Part shown: piece by piece, positions 27,647-42,672 of the stretch
Layout: the number at the start of each line of letters is the position of its first letter
Position numbering within the stretch: position 1 is the stretch's first letter
Source: Exiguobacterium acetylicum
GTDB taxonomy: Bacteria > Bacillota > Bacilli > Exiguobacteriales > Exiguobacteriaceae
Reading direction: 5' to 3'
Length of the DNA stretch: 64,000 bases
Assembly (NCBI RefSeq): GCF_022170825.1
Contig: NZ_CP081878.1
Location: forward strand, 1,266,001-1,330,000
Notes under the pieces: model-generated
Told to the model about the DNA's origin: nothing
Databases searched by the model: none
The model's input: only the letters and a program-made list of their open reading frames with translations
Translations under genes and position numbers: made by a program

Positions 27647-28990
27647 ATGAAAAAGCAACTTGCACTACTCACGCTAGCGACAATCGTCGCCATGCCAACG
27701 TCTGCTTTCGCGCAGTCTCAATATGTACAATACGACCCATCGTTTACAGAACAACAAAAACAAGAGTGGTTAGCGAATCAAGGACTGACTGAGCTTCGCG
27801 CCTTAAAACAAAAAGGCTTCTCACTCGTCGAGCCACTTGCGCATCTCGAGGAAGAGGACATCGATGCTGATTTGATTCCGATTACGGAAGTCAAAAAAGC
27901 GACGGATTCTGCCCAGTTCCAACAAACATATCTTGATCAGTCACGCATTCCTACGTACTGGAAGTATAGCCGTGGTAAATCAGATGTTCGCGTCGCGATT
28001 ATCGATGATGCGATTGATACGAAACACCGTGAGTTCAAAGATGTCATCTATAAAACAACGACGATCTCTGGAATCCGCAAACCCGACGACCACGGGACAC
28101 ACGTCGCGGGAATCGTTGGGGCACGTGAAGACGGTCAAGGAATCGTTGGTGTCGCATCTGGTGTTAAATTGATTGGGGCTGATGTCTTCGATGGAGAATT
28201 TGCCGGATCAATCGATATCGGCGACGGTATTTTGTATGCAATCGAGCAAGGGGCAGACGTCATCAATCTGTCGCTCGGACAATACGAATACGATCCGTAT
28301 ATGGAGTCTGCGATTAAAAAAGCAGAAGCGAAGAACATTCTCGTCGTCGGGGCGGCAGGAAACGATGGGAAGGGCAAAGTCCTCTTCCCGGGCTCGATGA
28401 GTCAAGTCGTTGCTGTCGGCTCGGTCGGTACTCTCGGTCGCGCCTCGACGTTCTCGAACTATGGTAAAGGACTCAACATTATGGCACCAGGCGAAGGTGT
28501 CTACTCGACGATCGTCGGCAATAAATATGGCTATCTCGATGGCACGTCGATGGCGACTCCCGTTGTTAGTGGTGTCCTCGCACTTGCGAAATCAAAAAAT
28601 CCGTTCGTCTCGAACACGACGATGCGTAGCAAGTTATACGCTGCGGCATCAAAAAAATCAGGCGATACGAAGTCGCATTACGGAACCGGTCGCTTAAATG
28701 CCGGCATCCTTGCGACACTGCCGGCACCGATCTCGAAGATTTCGTTGCCGTCAACGGTGAAGCCGAATCAGCTGTTTTCGTTCTACTTCGATGAATATGC
28801 GAGTGCGAAGACGACGACGCGTCTGTATAAGGATGGCAAAGTTGTCAAAACGTTCACGCAATCGAATTTAAGAAATGGGACACATAAATTTACGTACAAG
28901 TTGAAAGAGAAGGGGTCTTACAAGCTCGTCTTTACTACGACAGGCGGACGTCATACGCGCACCGTTGAACGATTATTGACTGTGAAATAA
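27647..28990 (+). CDS. Secreted subtilisin-like serine protease (S8)
   Basis: Extracellular endopeptidase of 447 residues. The signal peptide is MKKQLALLTLATIVAMPTSAFA, followed by a propeptide of about 80 residues. The catalytic triad is Asp120 (VAIIDDAID), His149 (DHGTHVAG) and Ser301 (GTSMATPVVSG), with the oxyanion asparagine in GAAGNDG. A C-terminal ~90-residue beta-type domain (from PISKISLPSTV) follows the catalytic core, as in several secreted S8 proteases. No terminator with a + strand T-run follows directly. Confidence 0.95.
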   Translation: MKKQLALLTLATIVAMPTSAFAQSQYVQYDPSFTEQQKQEWLANQGLTELRALKQKGFSLVEPLAHLEEEDIDADLIPITEVKKATDSAQFQQTYLDQSRIPTYWKYSRGKSDVRVAIIDDAIDTKHREFKDVIYKTTTISGIRKPDDHGTHVAGIVGAREDGQGIVGVASGVKLIGADVFDGEFAGSIDIGDGILYAIEQGADVINLSLGQYEYDPYMESAIKKAEAKNILVVGAAGNDGKGKVLFPGSMSQVVAVGSVGTLGRASTFSNYGKGLNIMAPGEGVYSTIVGNKYGYLDGTSMATPVVSGVLALAKSKNPFVSNTTMRSKLYAAASKKSGDTKSHYGTGRLNAGILATLPAPISKISLPSTVKPNQLFSFYFDEYASAKTTTRLYKDGKVVKTFTQSNLRNGTHKFTYKLKEKGSYKLVFTTTGGRHTRTVERLLTVK

Positions 28991-29015
28991 AAAAAGCGCT
29001 ACTCACATAGTGAGA
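28990..29015 (-). terminator. Terminator for minus-strand hypothetical gene
   Basis: GCGCTTCTCAC pairs with GTGAGTAGCGC; the T-run (TTTTTTTATTT) is only present when read on the minus strand. Confidence 0.7.
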
Positions 29016-29037
29016 AGCGCCGTACGAGACCCGGAGG

Positions 29038-29481
29038 TTACTTCGGGTCTTTTCCTTTTTTATAGACGGGCGTCGGAGGCGTCATTGCCTCTCCAGTCCA
29101 CGTGATCATCGCTTCCATCTTGTATCCTGTGTCATCCTCATGGACGAACGACAGACGACTGGAATCGATCAATTGATATAAACCATAAGCGACCTGGTCA
29201 GCCCAAGAGCGTAACGTCATTGCATCATCATACAACGGGATTTGCTCAGGGAAACGTTCATTCATAAGCAAGATATCGTGTTGATCGAAATGATAGCTAC
29301 GTTTTGAGAGTGCATCGGGCGCCTTGACGTTAAACGGCTCGAACGCGTGGATGAGCTCTCCTTGACGATAGAAGGCGAAGATGCCGTTTCGCAGATGAAG
29401 TGCCTTGATCTCGTCGATCTCAATCAAGAACGTCAACTTGCGAACCGTTCGCCGGTTCGTACCAGAGCGTCGTTTTTTCAT
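29038..29481 (-). CDS. Hypothetical protein, 147 residues
   Basis: Not recognised. The N-terminus is very basic (MKKRRSGTNRRTVRK) and is followed by a soluble alpha/beta pattern (TFLIEIDEIKALHLRNGIFAFYRQG). Start 29481 is preceded by GGGGG at 8 bases. The C-terminus is lysine- and proline-rich. It is convergent with the protease gene. Confidence 0.65.
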   Translation of the reverse strand: MKKRRSGTNRRTVRKLTFLIEIDEIKALHLRNGIFAFYRQGELIHAFEPFNVKAPDALSKRSYHFDQHDILLMNERFPEQIPLYDDAMTLRSWADQVAYGLYQLIDSSRLSFVHEDDTGYKMEAMITWTGEAMTPPTPVYKKGKDPK

Positions 29482-29568
29482 GCTACATGCCCCCTTCTGA
29501 ACTCTTGTACTATACCGTGAAATGAGGCAGAGACGCAACTTTTTCGTTTATAAAACGAGAATTGCCTC

Positions 29569-29597
29569 TTGCAGGAAAGCGGCATCTACGCTACACT
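29569..29597 (+). promoter_or_regulatory. Promoter of rnpB
   Basis: TTGCAG (29569-29574), 17-base spacer, TACACT (29592-29597). The predicted start is near 29604. Confidence 0.65.
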
Positions 29598-29603
29598 CAT
29601 AAG

Positions 29604-30003
29604 CAGTGACTATGTTGGTTCGGACAATCGCGGGGCATTTCGGTGCTTTGAGGAAAGTCCATGCTCGCACAGCCTGCGATGGCTGTAGTGATCGTGCTAC
29701 ACAAAAAGATAAGTGTAGGCAGCGTCAAGCTGACGGCAGAAGGAACGCCTAAGTCTTCGGATATGGCCGAAACTTCTTGAAGGTGCCACAGTGACGGAGC
29801 TTCATGGGAAACCATGAAGGTGGAACGAGGTAAACCCCACGAGCGAGAAACCCAAATTTGGTAGGGGAATTTCCGGAGCGGAATTGAACGCGAAGGAGAG
29901 CGTATGCAAATACGGAGATAGATGATTGTCGCCTGCGTGTGAGGGTCAAACCGTTTGAAACACTAAGGAACAGAACATGGCTTACAGGACCACATAGGCT
30001 GTT
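29604..30003 (+). ncRNA. rnpB: RNase P RNA, type B
   Basis: Catalytic RNA that trims tRNA 5' leaders. Hallmarks of the Bacillus-type molecule occur in order: GAGGAAAGTCCATGCTCGCA, the CTGACGGCAGAAGGAACGCC region, GTGCCACAGTGACG, GAACGAGGTAAACCCC followed by GAGCGAGAAACCCAAATTT, GATAGATGATTG, and near the 3' end AGAACATGGCTTACAG. The ends pair (CTATGTTGGT with ACCACATAG, helix P1). Length near 400 bases is typical. The methyltransferase gene downstream is the same neighbour as in B. subtilis. Confidence 0.97.
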
Positions 30004-30018
30004 ATTTTTAAGTTGAAC

Positions 30019-30051
30019 GAGAGTCCAGGTCCACCCTGGGCTCTTTTTTTA
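30019..30051 (+). terminator. Intrinsic terminator of rnpB
   Basis: GAGAGTCCAGG pairs with CCTGGGCTC, followed by TTTTTTT. Confidence 0.9.
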
Positions 30052-30100
30052 TTGCAATGAAACGATTCAGTGGAAGAAATGATAAAGGAGTGAACGCGAT

Positions 30101-31246
30101 ATGGCAAAACGCTTAGTCATCGCGACAGCGGCGATGGGAATCGAAGCGCTCGTCGCAAAAGAAGTCCGTGCGTTAGGGTATGAATGTACGGTCGAGGACG
30201 GAAAGGTCTACATCGATTGTGAGATGGAGGACATTCCCCGTTTGAACATGTGGCTTCGGACAGCGGACCGGGTCAAACTCGTCGTTGCCGAGTTCCGCGC
30301 GACGACATTCGAAAAATTGTTCGATCAAGTTAAGGCACTGCCATGGCACGAATTGATGCCGTGGGATGCGAACTTCATCGTCAACGGTCGTTCGGTCAAG
30401 TCGAAGCTCTTCTCGATCCGTGACTGTCAGAAGATCACCGAGAAAGCGATCGTCTCGCACATGCAAGAAGCGTACAACAAAGGAACGGAATGGTTGCCGA
30501 AGACAGGCGCGAGCTATCCGATCGAAGTCGCCTTGTTAAAAGACATCGCAACATTAACGATCGATACGTCAGGCGACGCATTGCACAAACGCGGCTACCG
30601 TGAGTTCCATTCAGCAGCCCCACTAAAAGAAACGATGGCAGCAGCGATGCTGATGCTGACGAACTGGAAGCCGGACATGCCGCTCTACGATGTCTTCACT
30701 GGTTCAGGTACGCTGGCGATCGAAGCAGCAATGATCGGGCGTAATATCGCACCAGGGATCAACCGCGAGTTCGTCTCACAGGAATGGAAATGCATTCCGA
30801 AGAAGGCATGGTTTGATGCGATCAACGAAGCGAACGAAAAAGCAGAGTGGGACAAACCATTGAAGATTTACGCAAGCGATGTCGATCCAGAGATGGTCAA
30901 GCTTGCGAAAACAAACGCAGAACTCGCAGACGTCCGCGATGCGATCAACGTCATGCAACGCGACGCTGCAGACTTCAAACCGAAGGAAGACTTCGGTGTC
31001 ATCATCGGGAACCCGCCGTACGGGGAACGTTTGGAAGATGCACGTGAAGTCCATCAGCTCTACCGCAAGATTGGAACAGCGTATAAAGAATTCCCATACT
31101 ACAGTGTCTACATGATCACGTCGTATGTTGAGTTCGAAAAAGCGTACGGTCGCCCAGCGACGAAACGCCGGAAGCTCTATAACGGAAATATTGAAGTTCA
31201 GTTCTATCAATATTATGGTTTGCGTCGGAAAAGACCGCAGTCTTAA
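30101..31246 (+). CDS. THUMP-domain class I SAM-dependent RNA methyltransferase (RlmL/YpsC type)
   Basis: The 381-residue enzyme should methylate 23S rRNA guanine N2. The N-terminal THUMP domain (about 45-160) is followed by a Rossmann methyltransferase: DVFTGSGTLAIEAAMIGRNIAPG binds SAM and the catalytic motif IIGNPPYGERL has the NPPY of N-methyltransferases. AAAGGAGTGA precedes the ATG. Synteny with rnpB is conserved in Bacilli. A degenerate copy of the gene's last ~20 codons and its downstream sequence lies 7.3 kb away (38480-38660). Confidence 0.92.
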   Translation: MAKRLVIATAAMGIEALVAKEVRALGYECTVEDGKVYIDCEMEDIPRLNMWLRTADRVKLVVAEFRATTFEKLFDQVKALPWHELMPWDANFIVNGRSVKSKLFSIRDCQKITEKAIVSHMQEAYNKGTEWLPKTGASYPIEVALLKDIATLTIDTSGDALHKRGYREFHSAAPLKETMAAAMLMLTNWKPDMPLYDVFTGSGTLAIEAAMIGRNIAPGINREFVSQEWKCIPKKAWFDAINEANEKAEWDKPLKIYASDVDPEMVKLAKTNAELADVRDAINVMQRDAADFKPKEDFGVIIGNPPYGERLEDAREVHQLYRKIGTAYKEFPYYSVYMITSYVEFEKAYGRPATKRRKLYNGNIEVQFYQYYGLRRKRPQS

Positions 31247-31261
31247 GCCATTTGTGAGAGA

Positions 31262-31299
31262 TGAGTGGGCGCCAGTTCCCACTCAGTTCCCACTTTTTT
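31262..31299 (+). terminator. Terminator after methyltransferase gene
   Basis: GAGTGGG can pair with either of two TTCCCAC blocks; the second is followed by TTTTTTATTTTTTT. Confidence 0.7.
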
Positions 31300-31321
31300 A
31301 TTTTTTTCGCCAAAATGTTAT

Positions 31322-31345
31322 GAGCCGCTCGGTTGAGCGGTTTCT
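31322..31345 (+). terminator. Second hairpin downstream of methyltransferase gene
   Basis: CCGCTC pairs with GAGCGG around GGTT and is followed by TTTCTTT. A comparable hairpin precedes the 17-base identical block in repeat A copy 2. Confidence 0.5.
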
Positions 31346-31530
31346 TTGCGTTTCAAAAGCTGCTCGAATCAAAATCACCAAGTCTTTTTTGGATGACATT
31401 TCGGATTGTACTGAAGTTTTTAATGCCAGTTCGATTGTTAAGAAATTTTCAAATCATAACTTTTTTACATACTTATGTTCTGTTTCTGTCAGAAAGAAAA
31501 AGCACCTGAGTGCCTTCAGTGTAAACCTTT

Positions 31531-32769
31531 TTAATTGCCGTCGATATCGGGTGTAGTTAAATCTAGCGAGGTAAATCCGGATGTATCTAAATTGCTGTTC
31601 AAGTCGTTCAAATTTTGGATAGCTTCTTGTCCTCTATAGTATCCGTCCTGACGCGTTTCCATCTCATCACTCTTAAGTAGTCTTTCCGAACTCACTAATT
31701 CAGACGCAGTGGATTGCATCTCAATGATCGTAGTCGACAAGGCGTTGGCGATGTGTTTGATATCTCTATCTGCTGTGAGCGATTTCTGAATGCCTATGAT
31801 TTTTTCCGACATACCATTTACCATGAGAGACAAAGAATCGCCAGTTGTTAAATCGTCAGCTTCTACTGGATATTCGAGTGACATCTCGTAATATTTTTCA
31901 TCCGCTTCTTTTAGCATGGCTGTCAGTTGAAATTGACCATCTAAAAATTCTGCAATCAATTCTCCATCATCTTTGTTCATTACATTTGAAACACCAGTAC
32001 TCGTTTCAGTAGCATCAGTAGAAGAAGCTTTGAAGATAGCTTCATTAAGCGGAATTGCCCGTAAAGTTTTTTCTTCTCGATTAGGTAAATAGTTTTCAGC
32101 TTCGTTCCATGTTTCAAAACTCTTAGAAACCGTATACGTCTCTAAGCTGTATGCCATATCTAATAGGTTCTGAGAAAGAGTTTCGAGTTTTTCAGCTATC
32201 ACGTTTTCTACATTTGTGAATGGGACGTCTTCATTCTTCGCCATGTACGCACCTGATGCCATCATATGGGCAATCTGTGCAGCTTCGTTTAGTACTTTAA
32301 CTTGCGCGTCTACTCGATCTCTCACATCTTGGGTGACAGTTTTTTGAAAATCTTTGATTCGAAGTTGTTCTGTTTCTTTCATCTCTTTTTGTTCTTTAAC
32401 AATACGGTTCACTAACTCGGTTGTGGATGAAATAGCTTTCTCAACAACAGGCTTCCCTGTATCTAAAGCATTTTGGACATCTTCTGGAGAAAAATCGTTG
32501 TTCGTTTGTTCTACATTTGTTCCATGTCCGAAAGAGGCGAGGTCTCTCGGATCAGAAGCTACAGGTGTGTCATTTTTTTGTTTTGCTTTTTCTGTTTTTG
32601 ATTCTGTGATAGGATTTTCCTTTTTAACCTGTGAAGATTTAGCATGCATCCCAAGAAAGTACGATCCCCCGATTATTACAACTGCAAGGATTCCGATAAT
32701 CCAGCGCATCTGGATGGTCCGTCTGTTATAACGACTATATTTAAAAGTACGTTTCTTTTCATTGTCCAC
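31531..32769 (-). CDS. Membrane-anchored hypothetical protein, 412 residues
   Basis: Not recognised. The basic cytoplasmic tail (MDNEKKRTFKYSRYNRR) and one transmembrane helix (about 22-42) are followed by a long, acidic, helix-rich extracellular part with serine/threonine and glutamate-rich stretches, possibly coiled coil. GTG 32769 is preceded by GGAGG 7 bases away. Base composition is more AT-rich than the flanking housekeeping genes. It is the first gene of the accessory stretch, convergent with the methyltransferase gene. Confidence 0.7.
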   Translation of the reverse strand: MDNEKKRTFKYSRYNRRTIQMRWIIGILAVVIIGGSYFLGMHAKSSQVKKENPITESKTEKAKQKNDTPVASDPRDLASFGHGTNVEQTNNDFSPEDVQNALDTGKPVVEKAISSTTELVNRIVKEQKEMKETEQLRIKDFQKTVTQDVRDRVDAQVKVLNEAAQIAHMMASGAYMAKNEDVPFTNVENVIAEKLETLSQNLLDMAYSLETYTVSKSFETWNEAENYLPNREEKTLRAIPLNEAIFKASSTDATETSTGVSNVMNKDDGELIAEFLDGQFQLTAMLKEADEKYYEMSLEYPVEADDLTTGDSLSLMVNGMSEKIIGIQKSLTADRDIKHIANALSTTIIEMQSTASELVSSERLLKSDEMETRQDGYYRGQEAIQNLNDLNSNLDTSGFTSLDLTTPDIDGN

Positions 32770-33238
32770 GACGTATCCTCCATCAGTAATTATTAATTTA
32801 ATCCTAATTTAGTACATTTATGAATTTAATTTCCATATTAATTCTAACTCAAAATGGTTTATTATACGACATAAATTTAAGCAATAGGACAACTATCTTC
32901 GCATCGAATAATCGTATACTTAACGTATATGAATATTGAAATGTAGTTACTGCATTAATTTCCAAGTATTATAGTCTCTATCGTGGAAGAGCACATGCAA
33001 AAGTTACATTTATTATATACATGATTGATAATGCACAATCATTACATAGTTTTTAAGAACCTCTCTAGATTAAATTAGGACAATATAAAAAATCCCTTTG
33101 AAATGACATACTTAAAAAAAGTACAAACTTTGAAAGAGTTTTTGATTAGCACAAAGTATATTTTTAAGCAGGATGATGCGAATAGTAGTCAAAAGGTAAA
33201 CATAAATGATGTACTTATACATACTGAGGGAGAAAAAC
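32770..33238. other. AT-rich intergenic region, nothing firm
   Basis: Divergent spacer between two hypothetical genes. It must hold both promoters, but many AT-rich hexamers make any one choice arbitrary. No RNA fold, repeat or credible small ORF with a ribosome site was seen. Confidence 0.5.
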
Positions 33239-33892
33239 ATGACAAGGATCTGGATCGAAAAGTATGAAGTAACGGGTGATTTAGGGCGTCTATTTGGTCA
33301 CTTTTTAGATATGGATGATTCAATTAAAACGGCATATTTAATAAGTCCGTCAGAGGGAGACGAATGTATTACACCGACGAAGAAAATTTTGTTTGAGTTT
33401 TTAGAGCATCGAAATGATTTTCCGCTGTATCTGTATTTTTCAGATGAATATGTATTAAGAGAAAGACATCAGCAGTTCTTTCAACAACAAGATGTTGACT
33501 ATACCATTCAAACGGTTTATCCGAATCGCAAACATCATTTAGATCCGCTTGTCTATTTTACAGTCGAGTTAAAGAACAAGGAAGCACTCAGACGCGTCGT
33601 TCGTAAAACGTACTGGTTAGGAGAAGAGAATGTCTTCTACGTGATTTCGAATTATGATAATTTAAAATTTACGTTTGAGGAAAGGCAACATTGGGGGTTT
33701 CAACAATATCTGTCAGTTGCTTCGTTTGATCGAAATCCTCCATCGGTGCTTATCAAGCCTGGTCATGACGGATGTGGTTTTTTCATATGTTCAAACGATC
33801 GATCGGTGAATTCGTTAGAAAACGTCATTCGGAGTATGCCAGAAGAAATCATCACGTATCAAGTCAATGATGAACTATATGAACCCGAGTAG
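33239..33892 (+). CDS. Hypothetical protein, 217 residues
   Basis: Not recognised. A soluble protein rich in aromatics (MTRIWIEKYEVTGDLGRLFG start; HHLDPLVYFTVELKNKEAL in the middle; VLIKPGHDGCGFFICSNDRS towards the end). ATG 33239 follows GAGGGAG; an upstream in-frame ATG lacks a ribosome site. It is divergent from the membrane-anchored protein and closed by a strong hairpin at 33979. The GHDGCGFFICS stretch is the only distinctive motif. Confidence 0.7.
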   Translation: MTRIWIEKYEVTGDLGRLFGHFLDMDDSIKTAYLISPSEGDECITPTKKILFEFLEHRNDFPLYLYFSDEYVLRERHQQFFQQQDVDYTIQTVYPNRKHHLDPLVYFTVELKNKEALRRVVRKTYWLGEENVFYVISNYDNLKFTFEERQHWGFQQYLSVASFDRNPPSVLIKPGHDGCGFFICSNDRSVNSLENVIRSMPEEIITYQVNDELYEPE

Positions 33893-33978
33893 GAAGAATG
33901 AATAGTTTTAGTAAGCTATAAACTCATTAAAGTGAGTCATTGATTTTGCGTATAGTTTTGTAGCCGTTCCAAAACGAA

Positions 33979-34025
33979 ATAGACGTAAAGAAGACCGAAA
34001 TCATTATTCGGTCTTCTTTACGTTA
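33979..34025. terminator. Long bidirectional hairpin between convergent genes
   Basis: ACGTAAAGAAGACCGAA pairs perfectly with TTCGGTCTTCTTTACGT, 17 bp. T-richness is modest on both sides. Confidence 0.75.
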
Positions 34026-34047
34026 TGTACTTATTCAATGTACAGTT

Positions 34048-34959
34048 TTACGTCAACAAATGGTCCGCTCGACATAAAACCGTCACCTTCACACCATCAG
34101 CGACAGAAAAGCCATTCATTCGCGTGCCATCATTCATGCGAAGCGGTGTCGTTTGGACGATGTCCTGGAAGAAAAATAGGTCACTTCGTAAACGACGCAG
34201 TAATTGGCGAACATGATCGTACGTAATCGCTTGACCACTCAATTCCGTCAATCGCTCGGCTAGCGCAGGATACGTTGACGTCGTGTTCGTCATAATCATG
34301 AAGAGTGTCAAGAAACCGTTCGGATTCAGTAAGATGGTTTGATTTTTCCACTCGACGAAGGTTCCCTCTGAACTGCTACGTAAGATGATTTCTTGAACGT
34401 CAGCCTGATACTCCTGAAACGAACGTTCATTGATTAATGTCTCCATTCCATCTTGGATCTTTCGATAATAGAGACGGTCAAATAATTGCTCGTCTTCAAC
34501 GAGTAACTCGTTTCGATATTTATTGAGTCGTGCTGCTTCATCCGGGTGCTCCTCATGTTCGCGGTATTCGAGTTCAGCAAGTGATTCGCGAGCGAGGTAG
34601 ATGCTGCAGTTGACGACGAACATATGCGTCAGCGTCGTCTGGATGTCACTGAGAGCAGCATCGACCGTACCGTCGAGCGCTCGGCTGAAGTGACGAATCG
34701 CTTCCGCATACTGACGATCGACATAATGAATATAGCCGATACGATAATTCGCAAGCGGATGCTTCGGACGAAGGCGGATTGCCTTAGTCAATGCGCGACG
34801 CGCTGCGTCATAATCCGGTGTCTCCGAAAATTTCGAGTACTCCGCTTGGCGGACATACAGATTCGTTAGTTCGTCTTCCAATTGTCTTCTTTTATCTCGA
34901 TCTGTCGTTTCCCGAATGGCGCGCTGGAGTTCTTGCGCTCGTGCATAACTCGTTATCAT
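34048..34959 (-). CDS. TPR-containing protein with C-terminal winged-helix-like region
   Basis: The 303-residue protein carries one or two tetratricopeptide-like repeats near residues 50-100 (DYDAARRALTKAIRLRPKHPLANYRIGYIHYVDRQYAEAIRHFSRAL). The last ~100 residues (TILLNPNGFLTLFMIM ... YDHVRQLLRRLRSDLFF) resemble a regulator-type winged helix. Start 34959 is chosen because AAAGG lies 9 bases upstream; the ATG at 34968 touches that site. It could be an intracellular regulator; target unknown. Confidence 0.65.
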   Translation of the reverse strand: MITSYARAQELQRAIRETTDRDKRRQLEDELTNLYVRQAEYSKFSETPDYDAARRALTKAIRLRPKHPLANYRIGYIHYVDRQYAEAIRHFSRALDGTVDAALSDIQTTLTHMFVVNCSIYLARESLAELEYREHEEHPDEAARLNKYRNELLVEDEQLFDRLYYRKIQDGMETLINERSFQEYQADVQEIILRSSSEGTFVEWKNQTILLNPNGFLTLFMIMTNTTSTYPALAERLTELSGQAITYDHVRQLLRRLRSDLFFFQDIVQTTPLRMNDGTRMNGFSVADGVKVTVLCRADHLLT

Positions 34960-35075
34960 TTCGGTCATCCTTTCTGTCTCTTTTCTTTCATCATAGGGCG
35001 GACGAACGCGTGTGACAAGCTGTCACAGCGGTGTTGCTACTCTATAGGTACCAACACTAAAGGAGTCGATATGAG

Positions 35076-36404
35076 ATGAGAAACGAAAGCAAATGGATCC
35101 GTTATGGCATTTTACGTGGAGAAGTCATCAAAGAACAGACATGGTCAGCTTGTGTGCAAGATGTCGTGCAACGAGCGGGTCAACAGGAAGCGACGGATGA
35201 AGAGATTCTCGATTGGATCGAAGAAGCAAAACATCGCTATGCACCACTTGACGATCATGGGATGGAAGCATTGTTTGATCCAAGAAGACAGGCGTTACCT
35301 TATCATCTGTTTGACGGGTATGTCAGAGGCATCGTCCGTATGTTGAACGAACTTGGAATTTTGACAAGTTCCTGTTGTGACGGTCACGGTAAACGAGCTG
35401 CTCGGGTTTATACGCAGGATTTGCTGACGAACCAGCAACGGTATTTGCTTCGTTTAGCGGCAGACGCGGTTCCAGGGTTGACCGTGTCCTTACAGAGTCG
35501 GTGGATTCAACTTGAAGTGAGAGAGCAGCGTTCGCTGTTGCTCGATTTAGCGGAAGTCTTATACCGCATCAAACAAGACGCGTCGACGATACAAGAGCTG
35601 CAATTGCAACGCTTCAGAAAGCGTCTGCTCAGATGGCTCGCTATTCCTGGACAAAGCAGAAGGGAACAGATGGTTCGCAGTCGCGTACAACAGGCAGTCC
35701 GCCGGTTTGCTGACGATTCTTTTGTCGATGAAAAAGGGAACCTGCTCGTGACCTACCATCGAGGGGAAGGACCGGTCATTTTATTATCGGCACATCTCGA
35801 TACCGTCGAACGTATCGATTCGTACCGGACGCTGTTTCAAGAAGGAACGGTCCTAACGAGCTCAAACGGAATTCTCGGGGCAGATGATCGAGCGGGTATC
35901 GCTGCGATACTTGAACTCATGGAACGCATCCCAGCGACTGACTTCCGCGGAACGATCAAGCTCGCATTTTCAGTCGAAGAGGAAATCGGTTGTCGTGGTA
36001 CAGAAGCGATGGACGCGTCCTTTTTAGAGGACGTCGATGCAGCAATCGTCTTTGACCGCCGCGGTACACGCGATATCGTTACGGGGTGTTATGGAGAGTT
36101 TGATTTTTGCGAGACGGCTTTTGGTGCATGTTTTGAGCAAGCCGGTATATTGAGTGGTATGCCAGATTGGCAAATGACGCGGTACGGGGGAAGTAGTGAT
36201 GCGAAACTATTCGCGCTACGAGCTATTCCGGCTGTCAACTTGTCCGTCGGTTATCTGCATGAGCATACGGATTTTGAACAGGTTGATTTTGCGGCGACGC
36301 TCGAAACCGTCCGTTTGGTCGAAACGTTACTCCATCATCGATTGCTCGAGCGTTATTTCGCTGAGCGGACAGAAAATCCAACTCTAGGCGGATATACCGA
36401 TTAA
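35076..36404 (+). CDS. M20/M28-type zinc peptidase with unusual N-terminal domain
   Basis: The 442-residue protein's C-terminal half has the co-catalytic zinc peptidase motifs in order: LSAHLDTVERID (about 245), GADDRAGIAAI, SVEEEIGCRGTEA (general base), FDRRG, YGGSSDAK and HEHTDFE. This is an aminopeptidase/tripeptidase-like catalytic core. The first ~200 residues are not part of the peptidase and include ILTSSCCDGHGKRAA, a Cys/His patch that could bind metal. AAAGGAG lies 10 bases before ATG 35076; ATGAGATGAG places a two-codon ORF just ahead. Confidence 0.82.
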   Translation: MRNESKWIRYGILRGEVIKEQTWSACVQDVVQRAGQQEATDEEILDWIEEAKHRYAPLDDHGMEALFDPRRQALPYHLFDGYVRGIVRMLNELGILTSSCCDGHGKRAARVYTQDLLTNQQRYLLRLAADAVPGLTVSLQSRWIQLEVREQRSLLLDLAEVLYRIKQDASTIQELQLQRFRKRLLRWLAIPGQSRREQMVRSRVQQAVRRFADDSFVDEKGNLLVTYHRGEGPVILLSAHLDTVERIDSYRTLFQEGTVLTSSNGILGADDRAGIAAILELMERIPATDFRGTIKLAFSVEEEIGCRGTEAMDASFLEDVDAAIVFDRRGTRDIVTGCYGEFDFCETAFGACFEQAGILSGMPDWQMTRYGGSSDAKLFALRAIPAVNLSVGYLHEHTDFEQVDFAATLETVRLVETLLHHRLLERYFAERTENPTLGGYTD

Positions 36405-36450
36405 TGGATTCCAAATATAGTAAAAAAGAGAGGTGAGAGGAGAGGGTTCG

Positions 36451-36741
36451 ATGTGGATCATACTAGGTTTACTGGCGATTGGTTTTACTGCTCTGAATAT
36501 CATCTTTTATTTAATTGGTAAAGACTATCGTTTCCTGATGGTGCTCGGACTGAGTTTTACGGCACTGACGCTGTGCGCGGAATACAGACTCGTCGCGGAA
36601 TTTGTGGCACGGAAGGACTGGGCAGCGTTACAAGACGTCGTACCGGGCATGGAGCGGGCACTGTGGGTATTGACGTTCATCTCGATCGGATTAAATGTAT
36701 TGCCGCTACTGTTAGACTACCGAAAGAATCGATCTCGTTAA
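36451..36741 (+). CDS. Small membrane protein, 96 residues
   Basis: Three hydrophobic segments (about 2-20, 27-45, 72-90) are separated by short charged loops, ending DYRKNRSR. ATG 36451 follows GAGAGGAGAGGG. It lies between the peptidase and the GNAT gene on one strand with short gaps (46 and 25 bases), so it is probably cotranscribed. Function unknown. Confidence 0.75.
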   Translation: MWIILGLLAIGFTALNIIFYLIGKDYRFLMVLGLSFTALTLCAEYRLVAEFVARKDWAALQDVVPGMERALWVLTFISIGLNVLPLLLDYRKNRSR

Positions 36742-36766
36742 CGAACCGAAGAGGAGCTGAAACACG

Positions 36767-37267
36767 ATGAACTATGTCTTTGCACCGCTAACGCAGCGGC
36801 AGGCGGAGCAGATTGCCTACGAGTGGCAGTATGATGGACCGTTTGCATTTTATGATATGCCGAATGACGAGGAAGATTTAGCCGAGTTTCTCAATCCAGA
36901 GGAACGGACCGAGCATTACTTCGCTGTGTTGAATGGGGAAGAATTGATTGGCTACTATGTATTCGAACCAAACTCAGAAGTCGTTGACGTCGGACTTGGC
37001 ATGCGACCGGACTTAACGGGGCAAGGAAATGGAGCGGCATTTTTAGAAGCCGGTCTTGCGTTCATCATGGATCGGTATGCACCAAAACAAATCGAATTAG
37101 CCGTCGCGACATTCAACGAGCGGGCGATTCGCTTGTATACGAAAAGTGGCTTCCTTCCAGTCGAACGCTTCCAACAGGCGACGAATGGTGGAAGTTATGA
37201 ATTTTTGAAGATGCGTTTACAACCCGTCCACTCGACGGAACCTTTTCCAAACTCTATAAGTAGATAA
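36767..37267 (+). CDS. GNAT family N-acetyltransferase
   Basis: The 166-residue protein has the GNAT acetyl-CoA site VGLGMRPDLTGQGNGAAFLEAGL (motif A, R/QxxGxG/A as TGQGNG) and the motif B region ELAVATFNERAIRLYTKSGF. The ribosome site is AGAGGAG. Substrate unknown; the family acetylates small amines, ribosomal proteins or antibiotics. Confidence 0.9.
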   Translation: MNYVFAPLTQRQAEQIAYEWQYDGPFAFYDMPNDEEDLAEFLNPEERTEHYFAVLNGEELIGYYVFEPNSEVVDVGLGMRPDLTGQGNGAAFLEAGLAFIMDRYAPKQIELAVATFNERAIRLYTKSGFLPVERFQQATNGGSYEFLKMRLQPVHSTEPFPNSISR

Positions 37268-37286
37268 CAGAAAAGGAGATGATGTT

Positions 37287-37511
37287 ATGGCACGCTGTAC
37301 GAATTGTCAGTATAAGTTCAACACAAAAGAAGTGCTCGCTGTCAGTGTTGCGATACACGGGAAAGGCAAGACGTGTCCGAACTGTGGCGTGAAACAATAC
37401 ATGTCCCGAAAGTCGCAATTTTATCTTTCACTCGGGAATATCAGTCTCTTGTTCGTTCTGTTCTTGCCATTTCTAATCCGGTTGAGCGACCGGGAAGAAT
37501 CGATGAGGTAA
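37287..37511 (+). CDS. TIGR04104 family putative zinc-ribbon membrane protein (paralogue 1)
   Basis: The 74-residue protein has two CxxC knuckles (CTNCQYKF and CPNCGVKQY, about 30 residues apart) and a C-terminal transmembrane segment (NISLLFVLFLPFLI). AAAAGGAGATGATG precedes it. It is a diverged relative of the two near-identical genes at 37586 and 40447. Role unknown. Confidence 0.85.
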   Translation: MARCTNCQYKFNTKEVLAVSVAIHGKGKTCPNCGVKQYMSRKSQFYLSLGNISLLFVLFLPFLIRLSDREESMR

Positions 37512-37585
37512 GATGTCGGTTACTTTTATTTTCATGAAACTTTTTCCTGAATCCACCAGTAGATAAGGAAGAAGGAGATGATCAG

Positions 37586-37804
37586 ATGGTACGTTGTACG
37601 AATTGCCAATATACGTTCAAAACGAAAGAAGTGCTCGCTGTCGGATTTGCGAAACACGGGAAAGCGTGTCCGAACTGCGGCGTGAAGCAATACATTTCAA
37701 AAGACTCGCAACATTACTTATCGCTCGGATACGTCAGTCTCTTGTTCGTCTTGATCCTACCGTTCGTCATCAAACTGAGCGACAAAGAAGAGACGATCTG
37801 GTAA
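37586..37804 (+). CDS. TIGR04104 family putative zinc-ribbon membrane protein (paralogue 2)
   Basis: The 72-residue protein differs from the gene at 40447 by one visible residue (QYTF instead of QYKF). It has CxxC pairs CTNCQYTF and CPNCGVKQY and a transmembrane C-terminal segment (YVSLLFVLILPFVI). GAAGGAGATGATC precedes the ATG. It lies inside repeat B copy 1. Confidence 0.88.
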   Translation: MVRCTNCQYTFKTKEVLAVGFAKHGKACPNCGVKQYISKDSQHYLSLGYVSLLFVLILPFVIKLSDKEETIW

Positions 37805-37811
37805 AGCATTA

Positions 37812-37847
37812 CGCGCATGCCTGAAAACGACAGGGTGCGCGTTTTGT
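37812..37847 (+). terminator. Intrinsic terminator of paralogue 2
   Basis: GCGCATGCCTG pairs with CAGGGTGCGC around AAAACGA, followed by GTTTTGTCTT. The same structure is found at 40674. Confidence 0.8.
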
Positions 37848-38009
37848 CTTATACTCGAGATTAAATAATAAACTAGGGGGATTACAACATTTTTTAAATG
37901 GGTAAATAAGGATATTTTTTACTATAATCAAGTTGTGGTTGGGGAACTACTCGATGCTAACGGGGTATCATTGGAATTGGCGGGCCTTCTGCATTTGCGG
38001 GAGGTTATT

Positions 38010-38273
38010 TTACGTAAACAAAAAAGAGTGCCCGTCAGGACCTCCCAGTTGCATCTTCAGTTGTTCCTCGAAGCGCTCCAGCTTCTTGCGGCTTGACGTG
38101 ATGTCTAGCTGCATCAGATTCTCCGTCTGCTTCAGGACATCGACCTGCAGGCCTTTCGTCAGACGGTAGAAAGCGGCGAGGATCTCAGGTGCCTCTCCCG
38201 ATAGTACGATTTGCGTCTTGTTCACGAACAAAAATTTTATGTGCTCCTCCTTGTGTGAAACGGCGACGATCAA
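38010..38273 (-). CDS. Small hypothetical protein, possible remnant
   Basis: The open frame encodes up to 87 residues (FVNKTQIVLSGEAPEILAAFYRLTKGLQ ... KKLERFEEQLKMQLGGPDGHS). A strong AAGGAGGAG lies inside the frame, so translation more likely begins at a TTG about 10 bases after it, giving roughly 70 residues. GC-richer than its surroundings. It sits inside the repeat-B-bracketed segment with no recognisable neighbour and could be a leftover of a mobile element. Not recognised. Confidence 0.45.
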   Translation of the reverse strand: MIVAVSHKEEHIKFLFVNKTQIVLSGEAPEILAAFYRLTKGLQVDVLKQTENLMQLDITSSRKKLERFEEQLKMQLGGPDGHSFLFT

Positions 38274-38479
38274 TATACGCCACGTGAATGTAAAGCAAAC
38301 GGATTGTCACTTGATTCCAGAAGGTTTTCCGCTTATTCTGAAGGCATCGCTTCATTTCAGTTCCACTACCTCTTACAAATGGTCAGTTCCCACCTGAATT
38401 CCCACTTGATGGATGACGAGAAATGAAATAGTAGGTGCGCCAATCATTTTCAAGTCCGATGTTCAGACGAGAGGAACCA
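38274..38479. other. Non-coding stretch inside the bracketed segment
   Basis: No ORF with a ribosome site. It contains CAGTTCCCACCTGAATTCCCAC (near 38385), similar to the CAGTTCCCACTCAGTTCCCAC block after the methyltransferase gene (near 31273), another sign that this segment derives from a related locus. Confidence 0.4.
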
Positions 38480-38660
38480 CACGAAATCAGCGTATAGTTT
38501 TATGAATATTACGGTTTGCGTCGGAAACGTCCGCAAGCTTAAGCGATTTAAGTAATAAAAATAACCAAAATTCTAGTGCATATTTATATTTGATTTGAGA
38601 TTTGAAGAATAATTGTGAAAAAGTCGTTATATTTCAGCGATTTTTTGCGTTTCAAAAGCT
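38480..38660 (+). pseudogene. Repeat A, copy 2: decayed methyltransferase 3' end
   Basis: Frame-conserved remnant. FYEYYGLRRKRPQA-stop (38498-38542) parallels FYQYYGLRRKRPQS-stop of the intact gene, with an in-frame TAG a codon upstream. The conserved 17-base block TTTGCGTTTCAAAAGCT recurs at 38644-38660. Divergence is much greater than in repeat B, pointing to origin from another strain or an old duplication rather than a fresh copy. Confidence 0.7.
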
Positions 38661-39239
38661 ATTTGAAGTCTCTTATGGCTATTTTTATAATTGAATAGTA
38701 TGCATTAAAATAAATGGAATTGTCGAATTTAATGAAGAATCAAAGTGAATCGCATTGAAATAAATGTTCTCATTTCGAATAGAAATAGTTATAAAAAGTG
38801 TGGCGTTAAAGAACTAAATGAGAAAGGTTTATCGAGCGACTAATTTTAAGAATTGAAATTCTATAACAGCAAGTAATAATTTGGTCTACGAAAAAAACTT
38901 TGTTGATTCACACCAACCTCAATAAGTTCCAGAGTACATTTTGAATCACGATTTACATGAAAAGGACCTTATTAAAGAAGGATATTGAGTGTTACAGAAC
39001 TGAAGTATGTGTAATATGATGTCTCTCAGAAGACGTAATTAAATTTAGTTTTTAAATCTATATAATTGTTACATATATTTACATGTTAGTTTTGTAAGAT
39101 TCATAATAATCAGCTTTGGTTCGAAAGGTACTAATGATAACCCGAGTGATTTTCTTTAGGAAGCGATTAAATAAGAAAGTTATTTTTTCATAATGTTGTG
39201 GAGTCAAAGAACTTAGATTTTCTAAAGGGGGTAATAAAA
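38661..39239. other. AT-rich non-coding lead-in to orphan gene
   Basis: No ORF above noise on either strand and no recognisable RNA. Composition is similar to the orphan gene that follows, so it probably arrived with it and carries its promoter; the choice among many AT-rich hexamers is not possible. Confidence 0.45.
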
Positions 39240-40328
39240 TTGAAAAGTAACCATAAACAAATTATTAATGCAAAATTAAAACTGTCTATTAAAAATATTA
39301 CTGATGGAGAAAATAACTGTTACTATGATGTAGATAAAATACATGAAGAAAAATCAATAAAATCACATTCTATTTGGAATAATGGAATACTTAAGCTTTT
39401 AGCTGAAAATAATAAAATATTTTGGATTGATCCTAAAATGAGATTTAAATTATATGGTGAAGAAGAGTCTTTATTTCATGAAGTAATTACAAAAAATGCT
39501 ACTGTTTATAGAGGCTTTTGTGGAGAACATGATAATAAATTATTTGAACAAATTGAGAAAGACAGTAGTTACGAAGGTACATTAATACAAAATTTTTTAT
39601 ATAGCTATAGGGCGTTCTCATATCAACATGTCCAAAATAAATTATCGAAATTAGCATATGAAGATATGTATCAAGAAATAAGAAAAATGGTTATTCACAA
39701 AATTGATGGCTTGAATGAAAATACTCTAAAAAATATAGATGAGCTTATAAAATTACATAATAAAAAAAGGGAACGAGGTGACGCTATATTTACTTCTACA
39801 AAAGAAAAATTTAATGCAAGTTTTAAAAATATTCATGACGAAAAATGTTTTAATAATAGTATTAATGAAAATTTTGTTTTCAAATTTTTTAAAATAAATA
39901 AAAAAATTGAAGTTGCTTGTTCAGGAATAGGTGATCCTTTAATTGATATTGATGGGAAAAAAATTATTACGCCAACATCAGGATTTTTATTTTTAAATTT
40001 GTTTCCTATAAGTTTAAATGAATCATATTTCATTTTAGGATTATTAAAAAAAGATGAAAAAATTTACAAAAAAATAATAGAATACTTAAATTTAGAATAT
40101 CAAAAATATAATGAATCACAAATTAATAATTTTGAGCTATTTGTTCAAAATTTAATAGTAAATGGATCAGAAAATATAGTTATGTCTCCAAAGTTATATC
40201 ATAAACTCAATTTAAATGGTGATATTGAGAAATTTGAAAAACAGTTTAATGGAAGTATTGCATTATCACATAAAGAGCAAAAATTACATCAAAACTTACT
40301 TGCAGATAATGGTTATAAATTGATATAA
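39240..40328 (+). CDS. Very AT-rich orphan gene, unknown function
   Basis: The 362-residue soluble protein starts at TTG 39240 behind a strong AAAGGGGG. Lys, Asn and Ile dominate and codons are almost all A/T-ending, in sharp contrast to flanking genes, so transfer from a low-GC Firmicute is likely. There is no signal peptide or membrane segment. The C-terminal half has VACSGIGDPLIDIDGKK followed by FLFLNLFPISLNESYFIL, which faintly recalls DUF4238-type proteins (SDxPx then FPLS). This is too weak to assign. It stands alone within a segment bracketed by repeat B. Confidence 0.75.
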   Translation: MKSNHKQIINAKLKLSIKNITDGENNCYYDVDKIHEEKSIKSHSIWNNGILKLLAENNKIFWIDPKMRFKLYGEEESLFHEVITKNATVYRGFCGEHDNKLFEQIEKDSSYEGTLIQNFLYSYRAFSYQHVQNKLSKLAYEDMYQEIRKMVIHKIDGLNENTLKNIDELIKLHNKKRERGDAIFTSTKEKFNASFKNIHDEKCFNNSINENFVFKFFKINKKIEVACSGIGDPLIDIDGKKIITPTSGFLFLNLFPISLNESYFILGLLKKDEKIYKKIIEYLNLEYQKYNESQINNFELFVQNLIVNGSENIVMSPKLYHKLNLNGDIEKFEKQFNGSIALSHKEQKLHQNLLADNGYKLI

Positions 40329-40446
40329 ATAGTTGATTAATTAAATGCACTAACTTCTAATAATTTCTTATTTATCATCAACAAAATTCACTCGACAAAA
40401 CTTTTTCCTGAATCCACCAGTAAATAAGGAAGAAGGAGATGATCAG

Positions 40447-40665
40447 ATGGTACGTTGTACGAATTGCCAGTATAAGTTCAAAACGAAAGAAGTGCTTGCT
40501 GTCGGATTTGCGAAACATGGGAAAGCGTGTCCGAACTGCGGCGTGAAGCAATACATTTCAAAAGACTCGCAACATTACTTATCGCTCGGATATGTCAGTC
40601 TCTTGTTCGTCTTGATCCTACCGTTCGTCATCAAACTGAGCGACAAAGAAGAGACGATCTGGTAA
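40447..40665 (+). CDS. TIGR04104 family putative zinc-ribbon membrane protein (paralogue 3)
   Basis: Near-identical twin of the gene at 37586, with the same GAAGGAGATGATC site, CTNCQYKF and CPNCGVKQY knuckles, and C-terminal membrane segment. It precedes gpx by 74 bases, and its own terminator lies between. This is probably the ancestral position, since its downstream flank joins ordinary chromosomal sequence. Confidence 0.88.
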   Translation: MVRCTNCQYKFKTKEVLAVGFAKHGKACPNCGVKQYISKDSQHYLSLGYVSLLFVLILPFVIKLSDKEETIW

Positions 40666-40673
40666 AAGCATTA

Positions 40674-40708
40674 CGCGCATGCCTGAAAACGACAGGGTGC
40701 GCGTTTTG
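40674..40708 (+). terminator. Intrinsic terminator of paralogue 3
   Basis: Same hairpin as at 37812 (GCGCATGCCTG with CAGGGTGCGC) followed by GTTTTGTC. Confidence 0.8.
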
Positions 40709-40739
40709 TCTTATACTCGGGGCAAAGGAGCTGTGAAAC

Positions 40740-41216
40740 ATGCAAACCGTATATGATGCAACCGTACAAAACGCAGCAGGAGAGACTGTTTCATTAGGTG
40801 ACTATGCGGGGCGTGTCCTCGTGATCGTCAACAAGGCAAGCAAATGTGGGCTCGTCAAACAACTTGGCGAACTGCAGGCATTGTACGATAAATATGACGA
40901 GCAAGGAGTCACGGTGCTTGGCTTTCCGTGCGATCAATTCAATCAGCAGGAGTTCGCGAGTCAGGAAGAGACGATGCAGTTCTGTCAGCTGAACTATGGC
41001 GTGACGTTTCCGATGTTTCAGAAAATCGATGTCAATGGACCAAATGAACATCCGCTTTATACATTCCTAAAACGCGAACGCTCCGGTCTGCTGTCGTCGA
41101 AGATTAAATGGAACTATACGAAGTTTTTAATCGATCGCCAAGGACGTGTCGTACAGCGGTTCAGTCCGGTCGATTCCGTCCAGTCGGTTGAAAAAACCTT
41201 ATCTTTGTATCTATAA
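40740..41216 (+). CDS. bsaA: Glutathione peroxidase family (BsaA-like) thiol peroxidase
   Basis: Cytosolic peroxidase of 158 residues that reduces hydroperoxides, in Bacilli probably with thioredoxin or bacillithiol rather than glutathione. The catalytic cysteine is Cys36 in NKASKCGLVKQ (Cys, not Sec). The partner residues of the family are seen in GFPCDQFNQQE (Gln) and IKWNYTKFLID (Trp, Asn). AAAGGAG supports the start. A terminator follows. Confidence 0.92.
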   Translation: MQTVYDATVQNAAGETVSLGDYAGRVLVIVNKASKCGLVKQLGELQALYDKYDEQGVTVLGFPCDQFNQQEFASQEETMQFCQLNYGVTFPMFQKIDVNGPNEHPLYTFLKRERSGLLSSKIKWNYTKFLIDRQGRVVQRFSPVDSVQSVEKTLSLYL

Positions 41217-41261
41217 TCCAAGTAACCGTCCGGCGCGAGTCGTTGGGCGGGACGAACGAAT

Positions 41262-41292
41262 ACCCTACCTTTGGCAAGGTAGGGCTTTTTTT
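41262..41292 (+). terminator. Intrinsic terminator after gpx
   Basis: ACCCTACCTT pairs with AAGGTAGGGCT around TGGC, followed by TTTTTTT. Confidence 0.9.
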
Positions 41293-41295
41293 ATG

Positions 41296-41757
41296 TCATT
41301 CAACGCGAAACGAATCAAATGAATAGGTGACAATCGCATCGCTGCGCTTATGTCCGAGATCGGTCAGAACCGGTGGACGGGGAGACAAGACATGAAAATC
41401 CTGCTCGAACGCTCGGAGCCAGTAATGGACCCAGTCTTTTGTAGGATCGAGATTCATCATTTCACGTGCGAATGTCAGCAGCTTTGAATCGGTCAGCGTC
41501 AGAAGTGGAATCGGATTGATCTCGACATCTTCTTTTAGTTCATACAGATCCAGTGAACGAAGCAGAATCGCATCCGCTTCGAAAGTCAATTGAAAGTAAT
41601 TACAGCTGTAGTCGCCGACGATGACCATCGTCTCCTCCGTATGCCCGCGAAAATGAAAGATCAATCGGTTACCATTTGCGACATCCATCGAGAACTGATC
41701 AAGTCCGATGTTATAATCCTCGCGAAATTGTAGTTTTTCAAGCGTGATTTCTCGCAT
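41296..41757 (-). CDS. Hypothetical protein, 153 residues
   Basis: Not recognised. The soluble protein has alternating beta-type stretches (NRLIFHFRGHTEETMVIVGDYSCNYFQLTF). Its ATG lies four bases after the EamA stop codon and its AGGAGG lies inside the last EamA codons, so the two are cotranslated from one transcript. Confidence 0.75.
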   Translation of the reverse strand: MREITLEKLQFREDYNIGLDQFSMDVANGNRLIFHFRGHTEETMVIVGDYSCNYFQLTFEADAILLRSLDLYELKEDVEINPIPLLTLTDSKLLTFAREMMNLDPTKDWVHYWLRAFEQDFHVLSPRPPVLTDLGHKRSDAIVTYSFDSFRVE

Positions 41758-41760
41758 GAC

Positions 41761-42672
41761 TTAACCTCCTGTTCGAGTTTGTCGTTCTTCTGTCAAAACG
41801 GTTTGGCGTGCTGCTAGGCGGGACGAGCCAATCAATAGAGCGATTCCGAGTAACAATAACGAAATTCCGAACCAAGCCGTTCCACTTAACTGCTCGCCGA
41901 GGACGAACACACCAAGCAAGGCGGCCGTCAATGGTTCACCGAGCGAGAGTGTGACGGCAGTCGACGACGGTACGTTCGATAGTCCTTTTGCGAATAACCA
42001 GTAAGCAAGCCCGGTCGCAACGACGCCGAGATGGAGGCTGATCCCAGCCCCTCGTGACGTGGCCAACCACGAGAGATCGAATAAGAATAGTGGGGGAGAT
42101 AGTAGCAGGGAGCTTGTCGTAAAGATGACGGCAACGACCGATAGCGGCGCGTGGGTCTTGACGAGGTCACGACTGACGAACGTGTACCCGGCAAACGATA
42201 GTCCGGCACCAAGTGCGAGAACGATGCCGATTGGATCGATCGCGACCGTCCCTTGATTGTTCAGGAGCAACAGACAACCGGTGATCGATAATCCGGTTGA
42301 AGCCCACCACAGCAACGCGGGACGTTTCTTTAAGAACAGCCACTCGATGCATCCAGAGAAGATTGGTGCGCTCCCAATCGCAACGACAGTACCGACAGCG
42401 ACACCCGTCATCAAAACAGCGGAGAAGAACAGGGGCTGGTAAGCTGCCATGCTGACGGCAGCGAGTAAAATCGTCCGCAGCGGCCAGTCGCGCAATGTCA
42501 GTTTTCCCTTTAAGAAGACGAGACAGAGCAAGAACAGTCCGCCGACAGCAAGACGAACGGCACCAATCGCAATCGGATGTGCATCGTCCGGAGCAAAGGC
42601 TTGCGAGGTACCCGTCGTGCCCCAAAAGATTGCAGCGAGTAATATGAGCAACATCGATGATGATTTAGACAT
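41761..42672 (-). CDS. EamA/DMT superfamily exporter
   Basis: The 303-residue inner membrane protein has ten hydrophobic segments and the internal duplication of EamA transporters: an early LLAAIFWGTTGTSQAFAP and a second half GLSFAGYTFVSRDL, then GVVATGLAYWLFAKGL and LGEPLTAALLGVFVLGE. Usually exports metabolites or amino acids; substrate unknown. GAGGTGAC precedes the ATG. Confidence 0.92.
   Translation of the reverse strand: MSKSSSMLLILLAAIFWGTTGTSQAFAPDDAHPIAIGAVRLAVGGLFLLCLVFLKGKLTLRDWPLRTILLAAVSMAAYQPLFFSAVLMTGVAVGTVVAIGSAPIFSGCIEWLFLKKRPALLWWASTGLSITGCLLLLNNQGTVAIDPIGIVLALGAGLSFAGYTFVSRDLVKTHAPLSVVAVIFTTSSLLLSPPLFLFDLSWLATSRGAGISLHLGVVATGLAYWLFAKGLSNVPSSTAVTLSLGEPLTAALLGVFVLGEQLSGTAWFGISLLLLGIALLIGSSRLAARQTVLTEERQTRTGG

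Follow-up and report, generated by a model that had tools for sequence, protein, structure and literature searches.

What do two near-identical direct repeats represent when they bracket DNA that related genomes lack, and how could such an arrangement arise? The question is raised by a locus in Exiguobacterium acetylicum, within a 64,000-nucleotide stretch of the chromosome (NZ_CP081878.1, positions 1,266,001 to 1,330,000; the window), where repeat units B and C enclose 2,540 bp just upstream of gpx. The insert holds a prophage end, a phage attachment core and an AT-rich cargo gene, with unit C now forming the border to gpx. We consider it probable that each repeat marks the end of a different version of the same integration hotspot, the interval between an rlmL-type gene and gpx, and that the two versions became linked in tandem, separated by a short remnant of phage DNA.

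Repeat units and the empty site in related species

Unit B (37537–37857) and unit C (40398–40719), both on the forward strand, align as a 269-nt block at 98% identity and a terminator-side block of 55 nt that is identical (100%), with a one-base register shift. They differ by 6 substitutions over 321 compared sites and by one extra A in C, and their match (E ~5e-156 in a search of the own genome) is far above chance, in agreement with the near-identical direct repeats reported in a preliminary description of this DNA. The abrupt ends reported there need qualification at the left of C, where the leader reaches to 40389: positions 40389–40436 are 87.5% identical to genome G017, mostly within the acetyltransferase 3′ end. 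The leader of C resembles the acetyltransferase end of G017, which has a single unit, and not the spacer between unit B and its neighbor, unit A. The latter (37239–37511, forward strand) is an older diverged copy, 75% identical to B, with an open reading frame (ORF) at 37287–37511.

An intact 72-residue ORF followed by a terminator is found in both B (37586–37804) and C (40447–40665), as originally described; the folded terminator hairpin of B has an energy of −21.7 kcal/mol (z −4.15). The accompanying assignment to TIGR04104 does not stand, since the scores (B 40.7, C 42.4 and A 38.2 bits) all lie below the curated cut-off of 45. The products of B and C are thus TIGR04104-like, and the repeats constitute a small zinc-ribbon unit.

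The locus was compared with relatives that are all other species, at one genome per species, so that the alignment with strains of the same species proposed in the preliminary description could be made between species only. A DNA match to the unit is present in 18 of the 19 genus genomes, the own genome included. In all 17 relatives examined, the unit stands directly before gpx (40740–41216, forward strand; Pfam GSHPx, 1.8e-38) and the 2,540-bp insert is missing. The gap between unit and gpx is 75–84 bp in 16 of them; the 126 bp in G013 come from an interrupted match, the second piece of which leaves 77. A single unit is present in 12 of the 17, and an A-B pair in the other five (G001, G002, G006, G009 and G010); three units occur in none of the 17. 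The full segment has no match in any other of the 19 genus genomes, and its only matches elsewhere in the own genome are to rlmL (54 nt) and to a stretch of about 50 nt at 80%. The segment is therefore foreign to its position, as had been proposed, and came with its own repeat unit. A transposon origin was rejected, given these almost absent genomic matches and the lack of any transposase among the insert proteins scanned.

The preliminary description took the high identity of B and C to imply a recent event. This does not follow, since the divergence between the two copies (6/321) is about the same as that from units of other species: B and C each differ from G006 and from G002 at 7/321 sites, and C differs from G016 at 5/288 (283 of 288 alike). 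For B and G016 the count list gives 8/288, whereas a count by eye in the same alignment has B matching G016 equally well. Units of G010, G001, G009 and G017 are more distant from both copies. In a FastTree tree B joins G006 (0.49) and C joins G016 (0.92), but the sites are too few to rely on. A recent duplication is thus unsupported, and the locus offers a caution: where the unit is highly conserved between species, near identity of flanking repeats is no proof that the event was recent.

A prophage end and a second attachment core in the insert

Beyond a 38-bp junction zone (37858–37895), the left part of the insert (37896–38495) corresponds to a prophage end on the lysis side and has matches in G017, G007, G003 and G009. 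From 38021 onward it is 84% identical to the prophage end of G017, and 37896–38274 is 79% identical to G007, while G003 and G009 match over shorter parts; positions 37896–37984 are assigned to the prophage end from G007 alone. It contains an 87-residue ORF (38010–38273, minus strand). This small ORF had been regarded as an orphan; however, it has relatives in four genus genomes, all within or close to prophage genes. Near the matching stretches in G007, G003 and G009 lie relatives of the G017 prophage-end genes, namely a 144-residue protein in all three and an endolysin in two of the three. These three loci (L055, L056 and L057) lie elsewhere on their chromosomes and are ends of related prophages that carry this small end gene too.

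After the phage DNA, the 3′ end of rlmL occurs a second time (38496–38549, forward strand), in a copy resembling the right attachment site of a prophage (attR). The decayed rlmL-type 3′ end noted earlier is thus real, and can now be identified as an attachment core, for two reasons. First, G017 has two copies of the core 41.3 kb apart with a prophage, read at its two ends, between them; an open tyrosine integrase adjoins the core on the rlmL side, and holin, endolysin and baseplate genes lie inside the other. Second, the temperate phage vB_EalM-137 (MH884510; host Exiguobacterium alkaliphilum) encodes an integrase of the same family, 56% identical to that of G017, and immediately beyond the integrase gene it matches the rlmL end at 28 of 31 bases. 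As in a prophage remnant, a copy of the target-gene end stands at the border of phage DNA, and a related prophage with an open integrase is flanked by a core on both sides. Of the rlmL genes, that of G016 resembles the inserted core more (50/54, 92.6%) than that of its own genome does (46/54, 85.2%). Together with the likeness of C to the G016 unit, which by eye B matches equally well, this hints at a donor lineage.

Tentatively, 38636–38667 on the minus strand may be a decayed echo of an integrase C-terminus, with 33 nt that are 88% identical to G002 (E 0.001, from a search of a small database); AT-rich DNA follows before the cargo gene. The earlier statement that neither transposase nor integrase is present thus holds for transposases in the scanned insert proteins and for an intact integrase in or beside the insert, as would be required of an active prophage or integrative element, but it overlooks the attachment-site copy and this weak echo. 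The only integrase match in the own genome at E up to 1e-20 lies elsewhere, at C1:1908343. This gene (G000:C1:1908343–1909449), outside the window, encodes an integrase of the same broad family (35%) and perhaps belongs to a second prophage. A scan with the integrase of the G017 prophage found one viral contig, IMGVR_UViG_3300011772_000037; an integrase encoded at its end (L159, 1–705) shares 91% identity with the query.

These data suggest that phages have repeatedly attached at the 3′ end of rlmL in this genus. A literature search on rlmL prophage attR remnants found no papers, and the terms "attachment", "hotspot" and "insertion site" do not appear in the main text of PMC13233415, on Exiguobacterium phages.

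The rlmL-gpx interval and the origin of its doubled end

The left border of the interval is an RNA methyltransferase gene (30101–31246, forward strand) that we take to be rlmL, following the preliminary description. It is 93–99% identical in 16 of 17 relatives; in the remaining one, G014, rlmL is not on the stretch examined. The resident attachment core (31200–31253, forward strand), 85% identical to the inserted one, lies at its 3′ end and is followed by a stub of an integrase C-terminus (31318–31368, minus strand; 16 codons and a stop). Integrase C-termini after rlmL score above all of 40 shuffled sequences in 11 of 17 flanks, including the open gene of G017 and the own stub, although narrowly so for the window (50 vs. 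48), G016 (45 vs. 44) and G006 (45 vs. 39); the integrase of G004 has four stops. No remains were detected in six flanks (G003, G007, G010, G011, G015 and G018). A gene for a 412-residue protein (31531–32769, minus strand) has relatives at 36–49% identity (tblastn) near rlmL in G017, where it stands beside the integrase, and in G008, G012 and G013; it is perhaps phage-borne cargo left by an earlier insertion.

The distance from rlmL to the first unit varies between 2.3 and 12.8 kb in the 15 relatives measured, and G010 and G011 have only about 3 kb between the two, with no match to the acetyltransferase. The interval thus has variable content between conserved borders, as in gene-transfer hotspots, in a comparison confined to this region. 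Taken together, the sequences suggest that it is an integration hotspot, where phages with tyrosine integrases attach at the rlmL 3′ end and cargo turns over before the unit. A second spot is variable as well. The acetyltransferase (36767–37267) is conserved up to residue 151–152, its tail being fused to the unit leader in five genomes (own, G001, G006, G009 and G017); in others 0.47–9.6 kb lie between the two. An RNA target was considered and rejected: the window contains no tRNA, and a scan of 28000–42000 for RNA families gave only RNase P RNA at gathering thresholds.

The order of core, cargo and unit is the same in 38496–40719 as in the resident 31200–37857, and the two can therefore be read as two versions of one interval. 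Version X (31254–37857) would comprise the integrase stub, cargo, the acetyltransferase and units A and B; version Y (37858–40719) would comprise the prophage end, the attR-like core, the AT-rich cargo gene and unit C. The direct repeat would then follow from X and Y each having a unit of their own at the end. With X and Y in tandem and 0.6 kb of the Y prophage end between them, a single non-homologous joint (37857/37858) would suffice. This joint falls directly after the terminator of B; in G007, by eye, the matching stretch starts about 10 bp past an inverted repeat that has a run of T and resembles a terminator. The greater similarity of the inserted core to rlmL of other species and the acetyltransferase-end leader of C also argue for two versions, and a Y-like version would be natural, since G010 and G011 have the unit about 3 kb after rlmL without an acetyltransferase.

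We infer that X and Y met in one recombination event between lineages, non-homologous at 37857/37858 and homologous at the other end. Either a Y fragment would have entered an X cell, with homology at gpx, or an X fragment would have entered a Y lysogen, with homology at rlmL and replacement of the prophage body. The simplest route would be homology-facilitated illegitimate recombination of transformed or transduced DNA. Such events have been described (PMC2884548). The present locus would resemble them in having one homologous and one non-homologous end; here joint and donor are deduced, and it is the layout that fits. A ComEC-type match is present, but the control is also positive in E. coli, so that it supports transformability weakly.

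Several observations weigh against this interpretation. We found no genome with version Y alone, and the 38 bp at the joint have no match in the genus loci compared. The 87-residue protein has no match in the phage, plasmid or viral collections, nor in vB_EalM-137, which in this respect differs from the insert. The integrase echo scores 33 as protein, compared to 35 for the best shuffle. The order of phage end, core and integrase echo would also fit the attachment site of a free phage (attP). Finally, flank identities are mosaic in the loci compared and do not indicate which half was resident.

The best of the alternatives, though an unlikely one, is the Campbell-type event envisaged in the preliminary description, in which a circle of about 2.86 kb carrying one unit would have entered the resident unit by a single crossover. 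It yields exactly the observed topology, with a near-identical unit at each end. However, the circle itself would need an odd joint, with phage DNA abutting the end of a unit. No such circle was seen, none of the insert genes could be recognised as a replication gene, and the plasmid matches of the cargo gene cover at most 35% of it at 31–40% identity. A circular donor is possible but not required, as a linear fragment with one homologous end gives the same layout.

Slightly less credible is a tandem duplication within a single genome that spanned the DNA between a prophage end at rlmL and unit B, after which the prophage body and the greater part of the second copy were lost. It accounts for the direct orientation, the second core and the second unit, and tandem duplications started by DNA uptake are known (PMC3784515). 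In the transformation-driven merodiploidy of Streptococcus pneumoniae treated there, a short imported fragment likewise gives rise to doubled DNA bordered by a repeat, but the doubled DNA spans ~100–900 kb of like content and uses existing repeats, whereas here a few kb of unlike content are involved. Such a duplication requires several more steps, with extra losses and a new cargo gene; moreover, the second core is nearer to rlmL of other species than to its own, and the distance of C from B is only one site smaller than that of B from G006 or G002.

That the units already stood in tandem as A-B-C before mobile DNA entered between B and C is improbable. The A-B tandems of five relatives lend it some plausibility, but no relative has three units, the leader of C is like the acetyltransferase end rather than the A-B spacer, and the insert has one core, not two. 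An assembly artefact is the least credible explanation: repeats of 320 bp can mislead short-read assembly in general, but the chromosome is one contig of 3,176,680 bases, the copies differ at 7 positions, and the insert contains genus-specific phage DNA.

Under the two-version reading, the locus is an unusually legible case of ordinary hotspot remodelling and adds one more example to a known kind of event. Hotspots of horizontal transfer between conserved genes have been documented (Oliveira et al. 2017, PMC5635113) and share the conserved borders and fast-changing content; the present locus differs in holding both contents next to each other and in having two copies of the right border gene. 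This single locus shows how two versions of a hotspot can come to stand in this way. Loss of the segment by recombination between B and C, as predicted earlier, is possible. More speculatively, and with little confidence, hotspots might grow by stacking, an incoming version settling next to the resident one, together with another copy of the border gene, rather than displacing it; the doubled unit would then provide homology for further cargo swaps, and the AT-rich gene would be uncharacterised protective cargo that travelled in this manner.

The AT-rich cargo gene

The cargo gene (39240–40328, forward strand; 362 residues from a TTG at 39240) is indeed very AT-rich, with a GC content of 22.4% compared to 45.8% for the window. 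The protein has no match in Pfam, PADLOC, NCBIfam or PHROG and is absent from the 37 other family genomes searched (own only, 1/38). Scans of genome_contigs and viral_contigs with the single protein alone found nothing. Overall, relatives are found in 12 plasmid records, in 9 of 398 class genomes including the own, and at 39 loci in genome_contigs and 27 in viral_contigs. Judged by sequence similarity, the gene belongs to a thinly spread, uncharacterised family on plasmids, chromosomes and viral contigs.

Among the 25 families listed first for the neighbors (109 of 118 ORFs at 32 loci scanned) are restriction and integrase families of PADLOC and Pfam, and AbiH, DUF262, type I restriction or prophage genes are found close to some of the relatives, as noted partly by eye. 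This survey has no background control, so a defence role, and with it the idea that the gene is protective, stays a guess.

The 66 loci were reduced to 48 aligned ones (57 passed to the ORF script, 54 with an ORF, 53 of suitable length), giving 49 rows with the window protein. An N-terminal SEC-C motif is present in 26 of the 49 members, the window protein not being among them, and a SEC-C motif occurs in three of five plasmid relatives. PADLOC assigns no family to the window protein, while up to 25 of the 49 members weakly match E2-type models, probably through the SEC-C motif.

An AlphaFold2 model built from the 49 rows has a mean predicted local distance difference test (pLDDT) score of 88.1. 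With Foldseek, no match at E up to 0.001 was obtained to PDB or to viral entries, and the best VIA-align hit (Z 6.3) involves helical stretches; searches with this predicted structure thus reveal no function and do not establish that the fold is new. Across the 49 members, seven alignment columns do not vary, and those of C27, H43, C94, H97 and D98 among them look like a putative metal site.

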